Below, piece after piece: positions 22,729 to 26,262 of a DNA stretch of 57,936 bases. The position numbers and the translations under genes were made by a program. Numbering within the stretch: position 1 is the stretch's first letter; every line of letters starts with the position of its first letter. The notes under the pieces were generated by a model, which made no database searches, had not been told where the DNA came from, and saw nothing but the letters and a program-made list of their open reading frames with translations. The DNA is from an uncultured Pseudomonadota bacterium. Its GTDB lineage: Bacteria > Pseudomonadota > Gammaproteobacteria > Steroidobacterales > Steroidobacteraceae. The stretch lies in the NCBI GenBank assembly GCA_903839465.1, contig CAIMCI010000364.1, positions 1-57,936 on the forward strand. The letters run 5' to 3'.

Positions 22729-23359
<631 letters not shown>

Positions 23360-23376
<17 letters not shown>

Positions 23377-23785
23377 GCGGATCGTAGCGCTCCATGTGCA
23401 GATCGGGCCGGTTGAGTGCGGTGAAGCCATAGCGCGCGTACAGGCCGTGGGCACTGCTGGTGGCGAGTGTGAACCGACGCAGGCCGGCGAGGTCCGGGTG
23501 GGCGACGATCGCTTCCATCAGCCGGGCCGCATAGCCGCGGCCGCGGTGACCGGGCAGGACGAACACGTCCACCAGGTTGGCAAACGTCGCCCGATCCGTG
23601 ATCACGCGCGCGAAGGCGACCTGGCGGCCGGCAAGGTAGCCACCGAAGCACAGCGAATTGGCGAGGGCGCGCTCCAGCGTGGCACGCGGTATGCCGCGGG
23701 CCCACGGCGACTCGCCGCCGAGAAAGGCATGGATGGCGTCGACATCGAGCCGCCGGCTGTCGCTCGAAACGACCAGTGCTTCCAT
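23360..23785 (-). CDS. GNAT family N-acetyltransferase
   Basis: 141 aa from the ATG at 23785 (MEALVVSSDS). Single GNAT domain: the acetyl-CoA loop is LPGHRGRGYAARLM, preceded by ATFANLVDVFV, followed by RRFTLATSSAHGLYARYGF, the pattern of the small YitI/ElaA-like group (substrate unknown). The frame extends upstream to 23917, but that part is not family-like. It overlaps the TMEM175 gene and is divergent from the first DUF6644-like gene, with 125 bp between them. Confidence 0.85.
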
Positions 23786-23910
23786 GGCGTCGCTCACCGG
23801 TTGCGCGGATCCGCGCGGGCCTGTCCCGCGACCGCCAGTGTACACGGCACGCGGTTTGACAGGGACAGCCGGCAGCGCCACCCTAGCGCCGGTCGGATCC
23901 GGGAGGTCGT

Positions 23911-24405
23911 GTGGCAATCGTGGCAGGGCACTGGCTGGACGAGGTGGTCGCGGATCTGGCGGCGACTCGCCTGTCGCACCTCATGCAGGACGTCGACTGG
24001 CTGGTGCCGGCGGTCCAGACCGTGCACATCCTGTGTGTCGCGGCCGTCTTCACGGCGACGCTGATGCCCGCGCTGGCGGCGCTCGGGCTTTACGGCCGGG
24101 AGCAGTCGCTGGCAGCCGCCTACGCCAGGTTCCTGCCGACGGTGCGCTTCGGCCTGCCGGTCCTGCTGCTGACCGGTGCGCTGATGGTCGTCGCCGAACC
24201 GGACCGGGCGCTGCCGAATACGGTCTTCCAGGTCAAGATGCTGCTCGTGCTCGCTGCCGGCGGCCTGACGCTGGCCGGGGCGCGCCGCGCGCAGCGCGCG
24301 GCGCCGGCCGACGGCCTGCAGCGGGTGCTCGGCCTCGGCGCGCTGCTGCTCTGGACGCTCGTGGTCGTCGCCGGCCGCTTCATCGCCTATTCGCTGTCGC
24401 GCTGA
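23911..24405 (+). CDS. DUF6644-like membrane protein (copy 1)
   Basis: 164 aa, GTG start. Four to five membrane segments. Shared with the next gene: a His in the first helix (His39 in VQTVHILC), a helix ending LALGLYG-like before an amphipathic loop, a central LLLTGALMVV...P, an F-x-x-K segment (FQVKMLL) and the C-terminal W-T-L-V-V-V-A-G-R-F-I pattern. This looks like the DUF6644 family, function unknown; the shape resembles CopD-like or heme-binding four-helix membrane proteins. A perfect TTGACA lies at 23856-23861 upstream, but no good -10 follows at 16-18 bp. Confidence 0.72.
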   Translation: MAIVAGHWLDEVVADLAATRLSHLMQDVDWLVPAVQTVHILCVAAVFTATLMPALAALGLYGREQSLAAAYARFLPTVRFGLPVLLLTGALMVVAEPDRALPNTVFQVKMLLVLAAGGLTLAGARRAQRAAPADGLQRVLGLGALLLWTLVVVAGRFIAYSLSR

Positions 24406-24434
24406 CGGCTAAGCCAGGCCACCCAGTGAGCGCC

Positions 24435-24938
24435 ATGTCACCCGAGACACTGTTCGATGCCCTGTACCAGACGAGCCTTGCGGGGCTGATCCGCGAGAAC
24501 GATCTGGCCTTCCCCGTCATCGAGACGGTGCACGTGCTGGCAATCGCGCTGGTGGTGGGTTCGATCGCGATCGTCGACCTGCGGCTGCTCGGCATCGCCT
24601 CCCGCGAGCGCGCCTACAGCCGCGTCGCCGGCGACGTACTGCCCGTGACGTGGCTCGCCTTCGCCGTTGCGGTGCTGTCCGGTGTCCTGATGTTCATTTC
24701 CAACGCGCCGACCTACGCGCACAACCCGTACTTCAGGGCGAAGCTCGTCTGCCTCGGCCTTGCCGGGCTCAACATGGCGGTTTTCCAGGGCATCACGGGC
24801 CGCGACTGCGGGCGCTGGGACCGGTCGTTGCCGACGCCCGTGCCGGTGCGGACGGCCGCCGTGCTGTCCTTGCTGCTGTGGACGCTGATCGTCACTGCCG
24901 GCCGCTGGATCGGCTTTACGATGCTGGCCGGATACTGA
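24435..24938 (+). CDS. DUF6644-like membrane protein (copy 2)
   Basis: 167 aa from the ATG at 24435 (a GTG three codons earlier is possible). Paralogue of copy 1, 30 bp downstream of it: His33 in FPVIETVHVLAIALVVGS, LSGVLMFISNAP, FRAKLVCLGLAGL, and the C-terminal LLLWTLIVTAGRWIGF align in order with copy 1. Four to five membrane helices. No known catalytic motif. The tandem arrangement suggests a heterodimer or two subunits of one membrane complex with the exported products of the next two genes (inference). Confidence 0.75.
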   Translation: MSPETLFDALYQTSLAGLIRENDLAFPVIETVHVLAIALVVGSIAIVDLRLLGIASRERAYSRVAGDVLPVTWLAFAVAVLSGVLMFISNAPTYAHNPYFRAKLVCLGLAGLNMAVFQGITGRDCGRWDRSLPTPVPVRTAAVLSLLLWTLIVTAGRWIGFTMLAGY

Positions 24939-24971
24939 GCCCGCCCGCGGGCGGCAACGAGGAACTGCGCG

Positions 24972-25799
24972 ATGCAAAACGTCAGGGGTGTCTTTTCGGG
25001 GTTGCGCGGCCTGCTGCTGGTCGCCTTCGCGCTGGGGTCCGGCGCCGCGCTGGCCGACGGTACGATCAATCCAGCGCCGCGGGCGAAGGACTGGACCGCC
25101 CTGTCGCGACTGCCGGACTGGAGCGGAGTGTGGACCCCGTACATCACCGACCAGGACGAGCGCATCACCCGTGACCCGACACCGTGGCTGCCGGCGGTCG
25201 CCCAGCAGATCAAGGTCATGGAGCAGGCCGAGGAGGACGGCCATCCGCGCGGCCTGTTCATCGATTGCCTGCCGGAGGGGATGCCGTCGTGGATGCTGAT
25301 CACGCACAACGCCTTCGAGGTGCTGTTCACCCCGGGACGGGTGACTCTGCTCGGCGAGATGGACGGCAACCGGCTGCGCCGGATCTACACCGACGGCAGG
25401 GGCCATCCGCCGGACCCCGACCCGTCGTTCCACGGTCATTCGATCGGCCACTGGGAAGGGCAGACGCTGGTCGTCGACACCGTCGCCGTCCTGCCCCAGT
25501 CATTCATCGCCGTCGGTGAAGCGGTCGGCGTACCGAACAACGGTGACATGCACATCGTCGAGCGGATCCATCTGGCGGACCGCGACCACCTGCACGACGA
25601 GCTGACGATCACCGCGCCCCGGGTGCTCAGCAAGCCGTGGAAGACGACGCGCATCTACTTCCGCCAGCGCGCCCGCAAGTACGACATCGTCGAGGGCGTC
25701 TGCCTGCAGGGCGGCATGAGTGGCCGCGAGGACGAGCACGGCAATGCGATCTTCGTGCCCATCCCGCAGGAAGACGGCAATCCGGTTCCACCGCGCTGA
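24972..25799 (+). CDS. Exported protein with GHWEG motif, function unknown
   Basis: 275 aa with a signal peptide (hydrophobic run LLLVAFALGSGAALA, cleavage about residue 28). The mature protein is predicted soluble, with LPDWSGVW near 47, RIYTDGRGHP (137-146) and GHWEGQTLVVDT (159-170), a motif combination seen in many exported proteins of unknown function from Proteobacteria and Acidobacteria that accompany DUF6152 proteins. It is His-rich around 145-160 (GRGHPP...FHGHSIGHWEG) and around HIVERIHLADRDHLHDE. Spacing of 34 bp from copy 2 and 46 bp to DUF6152 suggests one operon. Confidence 0.72.
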   Translation: MQNVRGVFSGLRGLLLVAFALGSGAALADGTINPAPRAKDWTALSRLPDWSGVWTPYITDQDERITRDPTPWLPAVAQQIKVMEQAEEDGHPRGLFIDCLPEGMPSWMLITHNAFEVLFTPGRVTLLGEMDGNRLRRIYTDGRGHPPDPDPSFHGHSIGHWEGQTLVVDTVAVLPQSFIAVGEAVGVPNNGDMHIVERIHLADRDHLHDELTITAPRVLSKPWKTTRIYFRQRARKYDIVEGVCLQGGMSGREDEHGNAIFVPIPQEDGNPVPPR

Positions 25800-25845
25800 G
25801 CGCCCGCGGCGACGAATGACAACCCAGTCCAGGAGACATACGCCC

Positions 25846-26262
25846 ATGAAGTACCTGATCCGCCCGCTGCTCGCGGTCGTCGCCGTCGGCCTGTCGGCGG
25901 TCCCGGCCGGCGCCTTCGCGCACCACTCGTTCGCGATGTTCGACTTCACCAAGACGGTCACGATCACCGGTACGATCAAGGAATTCCAGTGGACCAACCC
26001 GCACGTGATCGTGTGGGTCAATGCCGACGCGGCGGGCAGCGAGCCCTCGGCGGTCTGGTCACTCGAACTGACGAGTCCCGGCAATCTCACGCGCACCGGC
26101 TGGGACCGCAAGGCCCTCAACAGCGGTGACAAGATCTCCGTCGACCTCAACCCGCTGCGCAACGGCAATCACGGTGGTGCGCTCGTCGCGATCCGCAACC
26201 TGACGACCGGCAAGACCTTCACGACGAATCTGCGCGAGATGGAGCGCCCCGGCCTCAACTAG
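25846..26262 (+). CDS. Exported DUF6152 protein
   Basis: 138 aa. The start ATG at 25846 follows AGGAGA by about 9 nt, so it is chosen over the longer open frame. Signal peptide cleavage is predicted at AGAFA-HHSF (25/26), which would leave His26-His27 at the mature N-terminus, followed by FAMFDFTKTVTITGTIKEF and WTNPHVIVWV (His53), the DUF6152 core. A further His109 lies in NGNHGG. The beta-rich fold and an N-terminal His recall small periplasmic copper-binding proteins, but no function is established for the family. Last gene of the four-gene cluster. Confidence 0.82.
   Translation: MKYLIRPLLAVVAVGLSAVPAGAFAHHSFAMFDFTKTVTITGTIKEFQWTNPHVIVWVNADAAGSEPSAVWSLELTSPGNLTRTGWDRKALNSGDKISVDLNPLRNGNHGGALVAIRNLTTGKTFTTNLREMERPGLN

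Follow-up and report, generated by a model that had tools for sequence, protein, structure and literature searches.

In copper import systems of the CopC-CopD kind, exemplified by YobA-YebZ of Escherichia coli and YcnJ of Bacillus subtilis, a small exported protein that begins with histidine once its likely signal peptide is gone is encoded next to a membrane protein that has a conserved histidine in a helix. CopC has a cupredoxin-like fold. Among the periplasmic Cu(I)/Ag(I) chaperones, to which CusF and SilF belong, CusF uses His36, Trp44, Met47 and Met49 as copper ligands. A further copper protein family outside CopC is YcnI (DUF1775), which has a mono-histidine brace, and the genes for CopC and for DUF1775 often adjoin CopD genes, as described in PMC12362106. 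Here we analysed a stretch of 57,936 nucleotides (the window; positions 1 to 57,936 of contig CAIMCI010000364.1, assembly GCA_903839465.1) from an uncultured Steroidobacteraceae bacterium and followed up a cluster of four genes in it, which encode two tandem membrane proteins of the DUF6644 type (open reading frames ORF1 and ORF2), an exported protein that we call GHWEG (ORF3) and an exported DUF6152 protein (ORF4). An earlier note, made from the letters of this DNA without database searches, had proposed that the cluster could be a copper or haem handling system analogous to CopC/CopD. We found that the four-gene set is real and widely conserved, and by analogy we tentatively read it as a metal relay that would resemble CopC/CopD in its working while being a member of neither family.

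The four genes lie on the plus strand in a tight operon, separated by gaps of 29, 33 and 46 base pairs. ORF4 belongs to DUF6152 (PF19649; 104.8 bits against a Pfam cut-off of 27) and ORF2 to DUF6644 (PF20349; 49 bits, cut-off 27). ORF1 scored 16.7 bits against DUF6644, under the same cut-off, and keeps His39, the Lys of a V-F-Q-V-K motif, the Trp and the Gly-Arg; ORF3 matches no Pfam or NCBIfam family. Co-occurrence of the families over genomes had been set beforehand as a test of the proposal, and it was borne out. Among 117 evenly sampled genomes of the order, DUF6152 was present in 29 and DUF6644 in 26, all 26 being among the 29 (hypergeometric P 5e-23); among 249 genomes of the phylum, DUF6152 was present in 22 and DUF6644 in 16, again with 16 of 16 among the 22 (P 1e-20), these P values being overstated because related genomes are not independent. 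The pattern runs one way in both samples: no DUF6644 was seen without DUF6152, and DUF6152 without DUF6644 does occur. The two genes lie at most 5 kilobases (kb) apart in 15 of the 16 phylum genomes, with G505 as the exception, and GHWEG relatives were detected in 26 of the 117 order genomes, 23 of which also carry DUF6152 (P 7e-16).

The arrangement of the genes was compared over 80 named loci, the best 80 of 371 found by similarity to ORF2. Nearly all are proteobacterial by label, one metagenome-assembled genome (L088) being labelled Chitinophaga. The tandem DUF6644 pair is present in 80 of 80, and the fetched stretch holds DUF6152 in 58, GHWEG in 59 and both in 55. The order found in the window (pair-GHWEG-DUF6152) occurs at 24 loci, GHWEG-DUF6152-pair, as in Bradyrhizobium, at 13, and DUF6152-GHWEG-pair at 10, nine of them from Pseudomonas; bare pairs, considered below, and other orders make up the remainder. 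Gene order has been reshuffled while membership was kept, which argues for a shared function. Two-gene DUF6152-DUF6644 cassettes are also found on plasmids of Rhizobium lentis and Azospirillum ramasamyi (both genes so annotated), of Achromobacter (DUF6152 annotated, its DUF6644 partner identified by match) and of Paracoccus (found with a profile made in this analysis). Another 20 loci from the order were hand-picked from DUF6644 matches, and no rate is drawn from them; three overlap named loci, and counts over both sets hold three duplicates.

In its N-terminus the DUF6152 protein resembles CopC. The earlier note had predicted that the mature protein of the window begins with His-His, and the same is found in all 97 relatives that reach the N-terminus (92 distinct mature sequences), where His-His comes right after a signal-peptidase pattern (small or aliphatic residue at -3; Ala, Gly or Ser at -1); the other two of the 99 rows, both cut at the end of the locus, are without it. 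When the pattern was shifted later, it fitted 0 of 97 rows at one to four residues and 2 to 8 at six to eight residues, and at earlier offsets it fitted 17 to 58; cleavage before His-His is the sole predicted site common to all rows. As in CopC, signal peptidase would expose the N-terminal histidine, a prediction from the sequence pattern only. Precursor residues His26, His27 and His53 are invariant in 21 of 21 rows that were picked regardless of histidine. Mature His28, Pro27 and Pro78 are invariant in an alignment of 43 rows, which were chosen to start at His-His and in which His1 and His2 are invariant by construction. This alignment was drawn from 61 DUF6152 rows of the window and the named loci, of which 44 remained after filtering by length and at 90% similarity; L085, whose end looks frame-shifted, was excluded.

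The mature DUF6152 protein was modelled at a mean predicted local distance difference test (pLDDT) score of 90.4, with five long strands. Structural alignment grouped the model with oligonucleotide/oligosaccharide-binding (OB) folds, namely PriB and SSB (Z 8.5), CusF (2vb2; Z 8.1, root mean square deviation 2.4, 70 aligned positions, 17% identity) and SilF (Z 7.6), a Z near 8 being middling. Since SSB and PriB score as well as CusF, the match shows the fold only. As far as motifs show, the DUF6152 histidines differ from the copper ligands of CusF, and a DUF6152 profile found no CusF chain among PDB sequences at E <= 10. ORF4 matches only DUF6152 in Pfam at E <= 1, with no hit to CopC, CusF or DUF1775. 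Foldseek returned nothing at E <= 0.001 for the DUF6152 or the GHWEG model, and the matches listed for these two models include none of CopC, CcmE and YceI, though these may be present lower down. DUF6152 is thus predicted to be a small periplasmic OB barrel, like CusF and SilF in this respect, and we claim it as neither CusF nor CopC. It differs from YcnI in that it is not DUF1775 by Pfam and has two N-terminal histidines, and from CopC in matching no CopC model, an OB-like barrel being predicted for it; the cluster also differs from CopC-CopD in having the additional GHWEG protein.

The description of ORF1 and ORF2 as tandem paralogous membrane proteins, each with a histidine at its first helix and a C-terminal W-T-L-x-V-x-A-G-R pattern, was confirmed. 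Both have four hydrophobic helices and keep the pattern, and His39 and His33 stand immediately N-terminal of the helix-1 window. Over 206 DUF6644 rows, a set that includes three overlapping locus pairs, the His, a Gly and a Lys are invariant (206 of 206), as is the C-terminal Gly-Arg (205 of 205). The His is located at the start of helix 1, the Gly late in helix 2, the Lys at the start of helix 3, and the Trp and Gly-Arg at the end of helix 4. The orientation of membrane proteins follows the positive-inside rule. In ORF1 and ORF2 alike the N-terminal side carries one Lys/Arg and five Asp/Glu, and Lys/Arg are higher in loops 1 and 3, suggesting that the N-terminus is periplasmic; judged by hydropathy, this would place the invariant residues on the periplasmic side of the membrane.

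Profile comparisons with hhalign linked the upstream, a-type paralogues to the C-terminal half of CopD (probability 83.5, E 8.3e-6, 118 columns). For the same rows, reversed targets scored between 0.1 and 2.9, and a pair of unrelated membrane families scored 0.1 and 0.2. All DUF6644 rows together scored 66.4 against this half (reversed 0.8); depending on the target set, DUF6644 scored 7.2 (small set) or 37.3 (wider set) against CopD. Against YebZ, all rows gave 48.8 (E 1.8e-4) with ORF2 as first row, His and Lys being aligned, and 32.2 with ORF1 as first row, the His region only. His33 of the window was aligned with the YebZ helix residue His154, and Lys103 with a YebZ Lys. A conserved CopD histidine, which may differ from His154, is important for copper uptake through E. 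coli YebZ, and YcnJ H295A equals the deletion, according to PMC13344008. All rows also matched HemJ (50.6; reversed 3.8) and DUF2214 (60.2; reversed 0.1), all-row reversed controls ranging from 0.1 to 3.8 and the two unrelated membrane families reaching at most 1.4. The downstream, b-type rows, whose reversed controls ranged from 0.1 to 9.7, keep the DUF2214 match (48.1; reversed 0.1), and the two paralogue types match each other at 100. When 23 DUF6644 members were run against Pfam, CopD was found in 3 (best E 1.3e-4), DUF2214 in 6 (best 1.6e-4) and HemJ (UPF0093) in 2 (best E 0.0047, within the noise of the list); ORF1 and ORF2 themselves gave no UPF0093 match at E <= 1. In these comparisons a-type DUF6644 is remotely related to the C-half of CopD, and b-type alone shows no such relation. 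The earlier expectation of copper-related folds therefore stands for the a-type protein and not for the b-type alone, and the OB fold of DUF6152 is shared with CusF and DNA-binding proteins alike.

The membrane part nevertheless departs from both relatives. YebZ has 290 amino acids and two halves, whereas DUF6644 is a single four-helix unit of 164-167 amino acids that comes as a tandem pair. What sets it apart from HemJ is a C-terminal W...GR signature and a set of operon partners of its own, and the genome of the window carries a separate HemJ elsewhere. We also considered the pair as the two halves of a split CopD and found this unsupported on sequence, the CopD N-half scoring 0.2 against DUF6644 and 0.7 against the C-half. 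A PDB sequence search gave no useful relative for DUF6644, DUF6152 or GHWEG, and DUF6152, DUF6644, PF19649, PF20349, IPR046150 and DUF6162 are unmentioned in the open-licence literature searched.

For GHWEG, export was upheld and histidine richness was not. ORF3 has 11 His among 275 residues, and in 51 aligned relatives (of 61 rows) no His is invariant or nearly so; the idea of a metal protein based on its histidines was dropped. Cys72 is kept in at least 90% of these rows and Cys217 in 51 of 51 (numbering of the modelled stretch). The model (mean pLDDT 87.7) is a barrel, and among the matches listed most are fatty-acid or retinoid binding proteins, together with NanoLuc and tardigrade SAHS (Z 7.9-8.5). 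This calycin-like barrel makes a hydrophobic ligand plausible.

The above findings are consistent with a metal relay of CopC/CopD-like design put together from other families, a reading that we hold tentatively, with a confidence just short of even. DUF6152 would be exported and lose its signal peptide, exposing the N-terminal His-His, which together with the third invariant His could bind a transition-metal ion in the periplasm, most plausibly Cu(II). The DUF6644 pair, which probably forms a heterodimer, would then receive the ion and move or reduce it; the invariant His, Lys, Trp and Gly-Arg of the pair would lie at the periplasmic membrane face. GHWEG would probably bind a small hydrophobic ligand or carrier. 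Copper is favoured only because of the chemistry and the CopD relation; the neighbouring genes suggest metals in general or electron transfer, and nothing in them is specific to copper. The earlier interpretation is partly supported in this form: to judge from sequence comparison, the analogy holds better than expected for a CopD-like membrane part (the a-type protein) and a protein with N-terminal histidine, and no tie to copper in particular was seen, the metal-type neighbours found being of ZnuABC, HupE/UreJ and TonB/PepSY type. If correct, the relay would be another design of the CopC/CopD kind, widespread in proteobacteria, in which an OB fold would replace CopC, and two half-size relatives of CopD would replace the single CopD. 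It would also join two uncharacterised Pfam families (DUF6152 and DUF6644) and the unnamed GHWEG family into one testable system, whose defined residues (in DUF6152, His1, His2 and His28; in DUF6644, the His and the Lys) allow a direct test.

Several observations weigh against such a relay. Of the 97 DUF6152 rows, 77 have another signal-peptidase-like pattern five residues after the first. The b-type rows carry no CopD signal of their own (1.1 against the C-half; reversed 1.7), which slightly lowers our confidence in the relay; against HemJ they scored 16.4 (reversed 9.7). DUF6644 scored 23.7 against its own reversed profile, and values near 20-40 are therefore weak by themselves. Neither ORF1 nor ORF2 gives a Pfam CopD (PF05425) match at E <= 1. 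At 18 of the 80 named loci the DUF6644 pair is bare, with neither DUF6152 nor GHWEG in the fetched stretch. Among the neighbours scanned, none was a classical copper gene (in one scan, 25 of 63 families were listed). No Zur, Fur, CueR-like or other metal-regulator box stood out upstream of the operons when patterns of five kinds (Zur, Fur, Nur-like, CueR-like and Irr-like) were compared between upstream and shuffled sequence; a CueR-like difference in the Bradyrhizobium relatives (4.18 versus 5.33 mismatches) is not trusted because these sequences are related. Finally, 14 genomes of family f6 contain at least 38 DUF6152 and at least 24 GHWEG matches each, which would be odd for metal homeostasis.

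Other readings draw on the neighbouring genes. At 43 of 107 loci (39 of the 80 named ones) a class II cytochrome c is encoded no more than 3 kb from the DUF6644 genes. It has a weak Pfam match to Cytochrom_C_2 and is related to cytochrome c' (best E 8.7e-5 against PDB), and at least 10 of the 117 order genomes contain it, eight of them with DUF6644 (P 7e-5; 31 candidates were scored in most genomes). Together with the all-row matches to HemJ and DUF2214, this would fit a haem-b/quinol redox module, in which the DUF6644 pair would bind haem b like HemJ, with one axial His per subunit, and electrons would pass between quinol and the cytochrome in the periplasm. GHWEG would bind a quinone or a lipid, in the manner proposed for YceI, and DUF6152 would be a redox or haem partner; the calycin-like barrel of GHWEG and the YceI genes that adjoin the pair in L111 and L124 are in keeping with this. 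However, the cytochrome is absent near the cluster in the window and was not found in its genome, where 31 of 58 candidates were scored, and the module offers no explanation for the strict conservation of His-His at the N-terminus of DUF6152. We consider it rather unlikely. Finding a CopD relative associated with a class II cytochrome c is also relevant to the question of what CopD relatives carry, metal or electrons.

Iron or a chelated metal could instead be taken up reductively, a TonB receptor, a PepSY membrane reductase, the cytochrome c and the DUF6644 pair together freeing the metal from a carrier that GHWEG holds. Clustering showed TonB-dependent receptors as operon neighbours in 9 + 4 loci (identified by Pfam in L063 and L082 and annotated in L143), PepSY_TM genes occur in L077, L082 and L088, and HupE/UreJ genes in 11 loci besides the source locus. 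A DUF4198 gene belongs to the Pseudomonas operon described below, and according to PMC3751524 DUF4198 genes are under Fur control in Caulobacter. These neighbours are lineage-specific, however, and missing from the window. TonB receptors, PepSY_TM, YceI, HupE/UreJ, Abhydrolase_10 and oxidoreductases each recur in single lineages. No Fur-like box was found upstream either, and we regard reductive uptake as unlikely.

The very many DUF6152 and GHWEG copies in family f6 would suit a periplasmic catabolic accessory module, in which both proteins help to oxidise natural products and have the DUF6644 pair as only one partner among several. The f6 neighbours scanned include pyrroloquinoline quinone (PQQ) dehydrogenases, a GMC oxidoreductase and amidohydrolases, and elsewhere GMC/gluconate dehydrogenase subunits and Abhydrolase_10 are neighbours. 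The neighbours annotated together amount to only 29 proteins, of which three f6 stretches supply 24, a further stretch 2 and L117 3, and the module appears improbable to us. Slightly less credit still goes to the idea that DUF6152 carries a histidine-brace copper site built on an OB fold and that, in the families with dozens of copies, it would act as a periplasmic mono-copper oxidase or oxygenase, with GHWEG delivering substrate and the DUF6644 pair and class II cytochrome c delivering electrons or copper; no paper that brings 'histidine brace' together with 'OB fold' was found in the open-licence literature. That the genes are chance neighbours without shared function is barely conceivable, given their co-occurrence and the membership kept through several gene orders in Alpha-, Beta- and Gammaproteobacteria.

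The features of the cluster are collected in the table. It is flanked on one side by a divergent GNAT gene on the minus strand, whose first in-frame ATG is at 23785 (GTG and TTG starts also exist upstream), and on the other by a convergent gamma-glutamyltransferase gene. Adjoining the GNAT gene is a gene for a TMEM175-type potassium channel domain protein (22729-23361, minus strand; Pfam TMEM175, 111.3 bits).

Features of the four-gene cluster, in positions of the window (aa, amino acids)
Feature	Position	Strand	Remarks
Short intergenic stretch 5' of the operon, presumed promoter	23786-23910	.	divergent from GNAT gene
ORF1, upstream DUF6644 paralogue (a-type)	23911-24405	+	164 aa, GTG start, 4 predicted helices
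ORF1 His39 codon	24025-24027	+	directly precedes helix 1
ORF2, downstream DUF6644 paralogue (b-type)	24435-24938	+	167 aa, 4 predicted helices, Lys103, Gly156-Arg157
ORF2 His33 codon	24531-24533	+	directly precedes helix 1
ORF3, exported GHWEG protein	24972-25799	+	275 aa, predicted calycin-like barrel, conserved Cys pair
ORF4, exported DUF6152 protein	25846-26262	+	138 aa, predicted OB fold
His-His codons, predicted mature N-terminus of DUF6152	25921-25926	+	from sequence and relatives
Third invariant His codon of DUF6152	26002-26004	+	His53 of precursor, His28 of mature protein, in W-T-N-P-H

In 11 of 11 Pseudomonas loci there comes, directly after the DUF6644 pair, a run of genes for DUF6162, ZnuA, an ABC ATPase, an ABC-3 permease, a second ZnuA, a 107-amino-acid protein and DUF4198; this ZnuABC-type importer was identified by Pfam in L103 and by tblastn in all 11 loci. 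The same importer adjoins a GHWEG gene in G037, with ZnuA about 80% and the permease 73% identical. The importer operons at L103:8560-13900 and L220:2462-9125 include DUF6162 and DUF4198, and in them DUF4198 and a protein of 104-107 amino acids appear to be His-first after signal cleavage (AHFQ..., AHAP...), like DUF6152.

Eight mostly sphingomonad loci (L063, L064, L074, L076, L083, L102, L112 and L134) carry the DUF6644 pair with no DUF6152 or GHWEG in reach, and their opposite strand encodes a class II cytochrome c as well as HupE/UreJ; in L063, L064, L074, L076 and L134 a TonB receptor is next to the pair. A molybdopterin oxidoreductase domain gene (L117:8959-9927) and a YceI gene (L124:6827-7390) also lie beside DUF6644 pairs; molybdopterin oxidoreductases and YceI are partners in b-type cytochrome systems. 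The f6 genomes are G005, G020, G034, G045, G055, G071, G083, G089, G095, G100, G104, G108, G112 and G116, and a first look at G100 (3.9 Mb) gave 168 DUF6152 and 176 GHWEG candidates.

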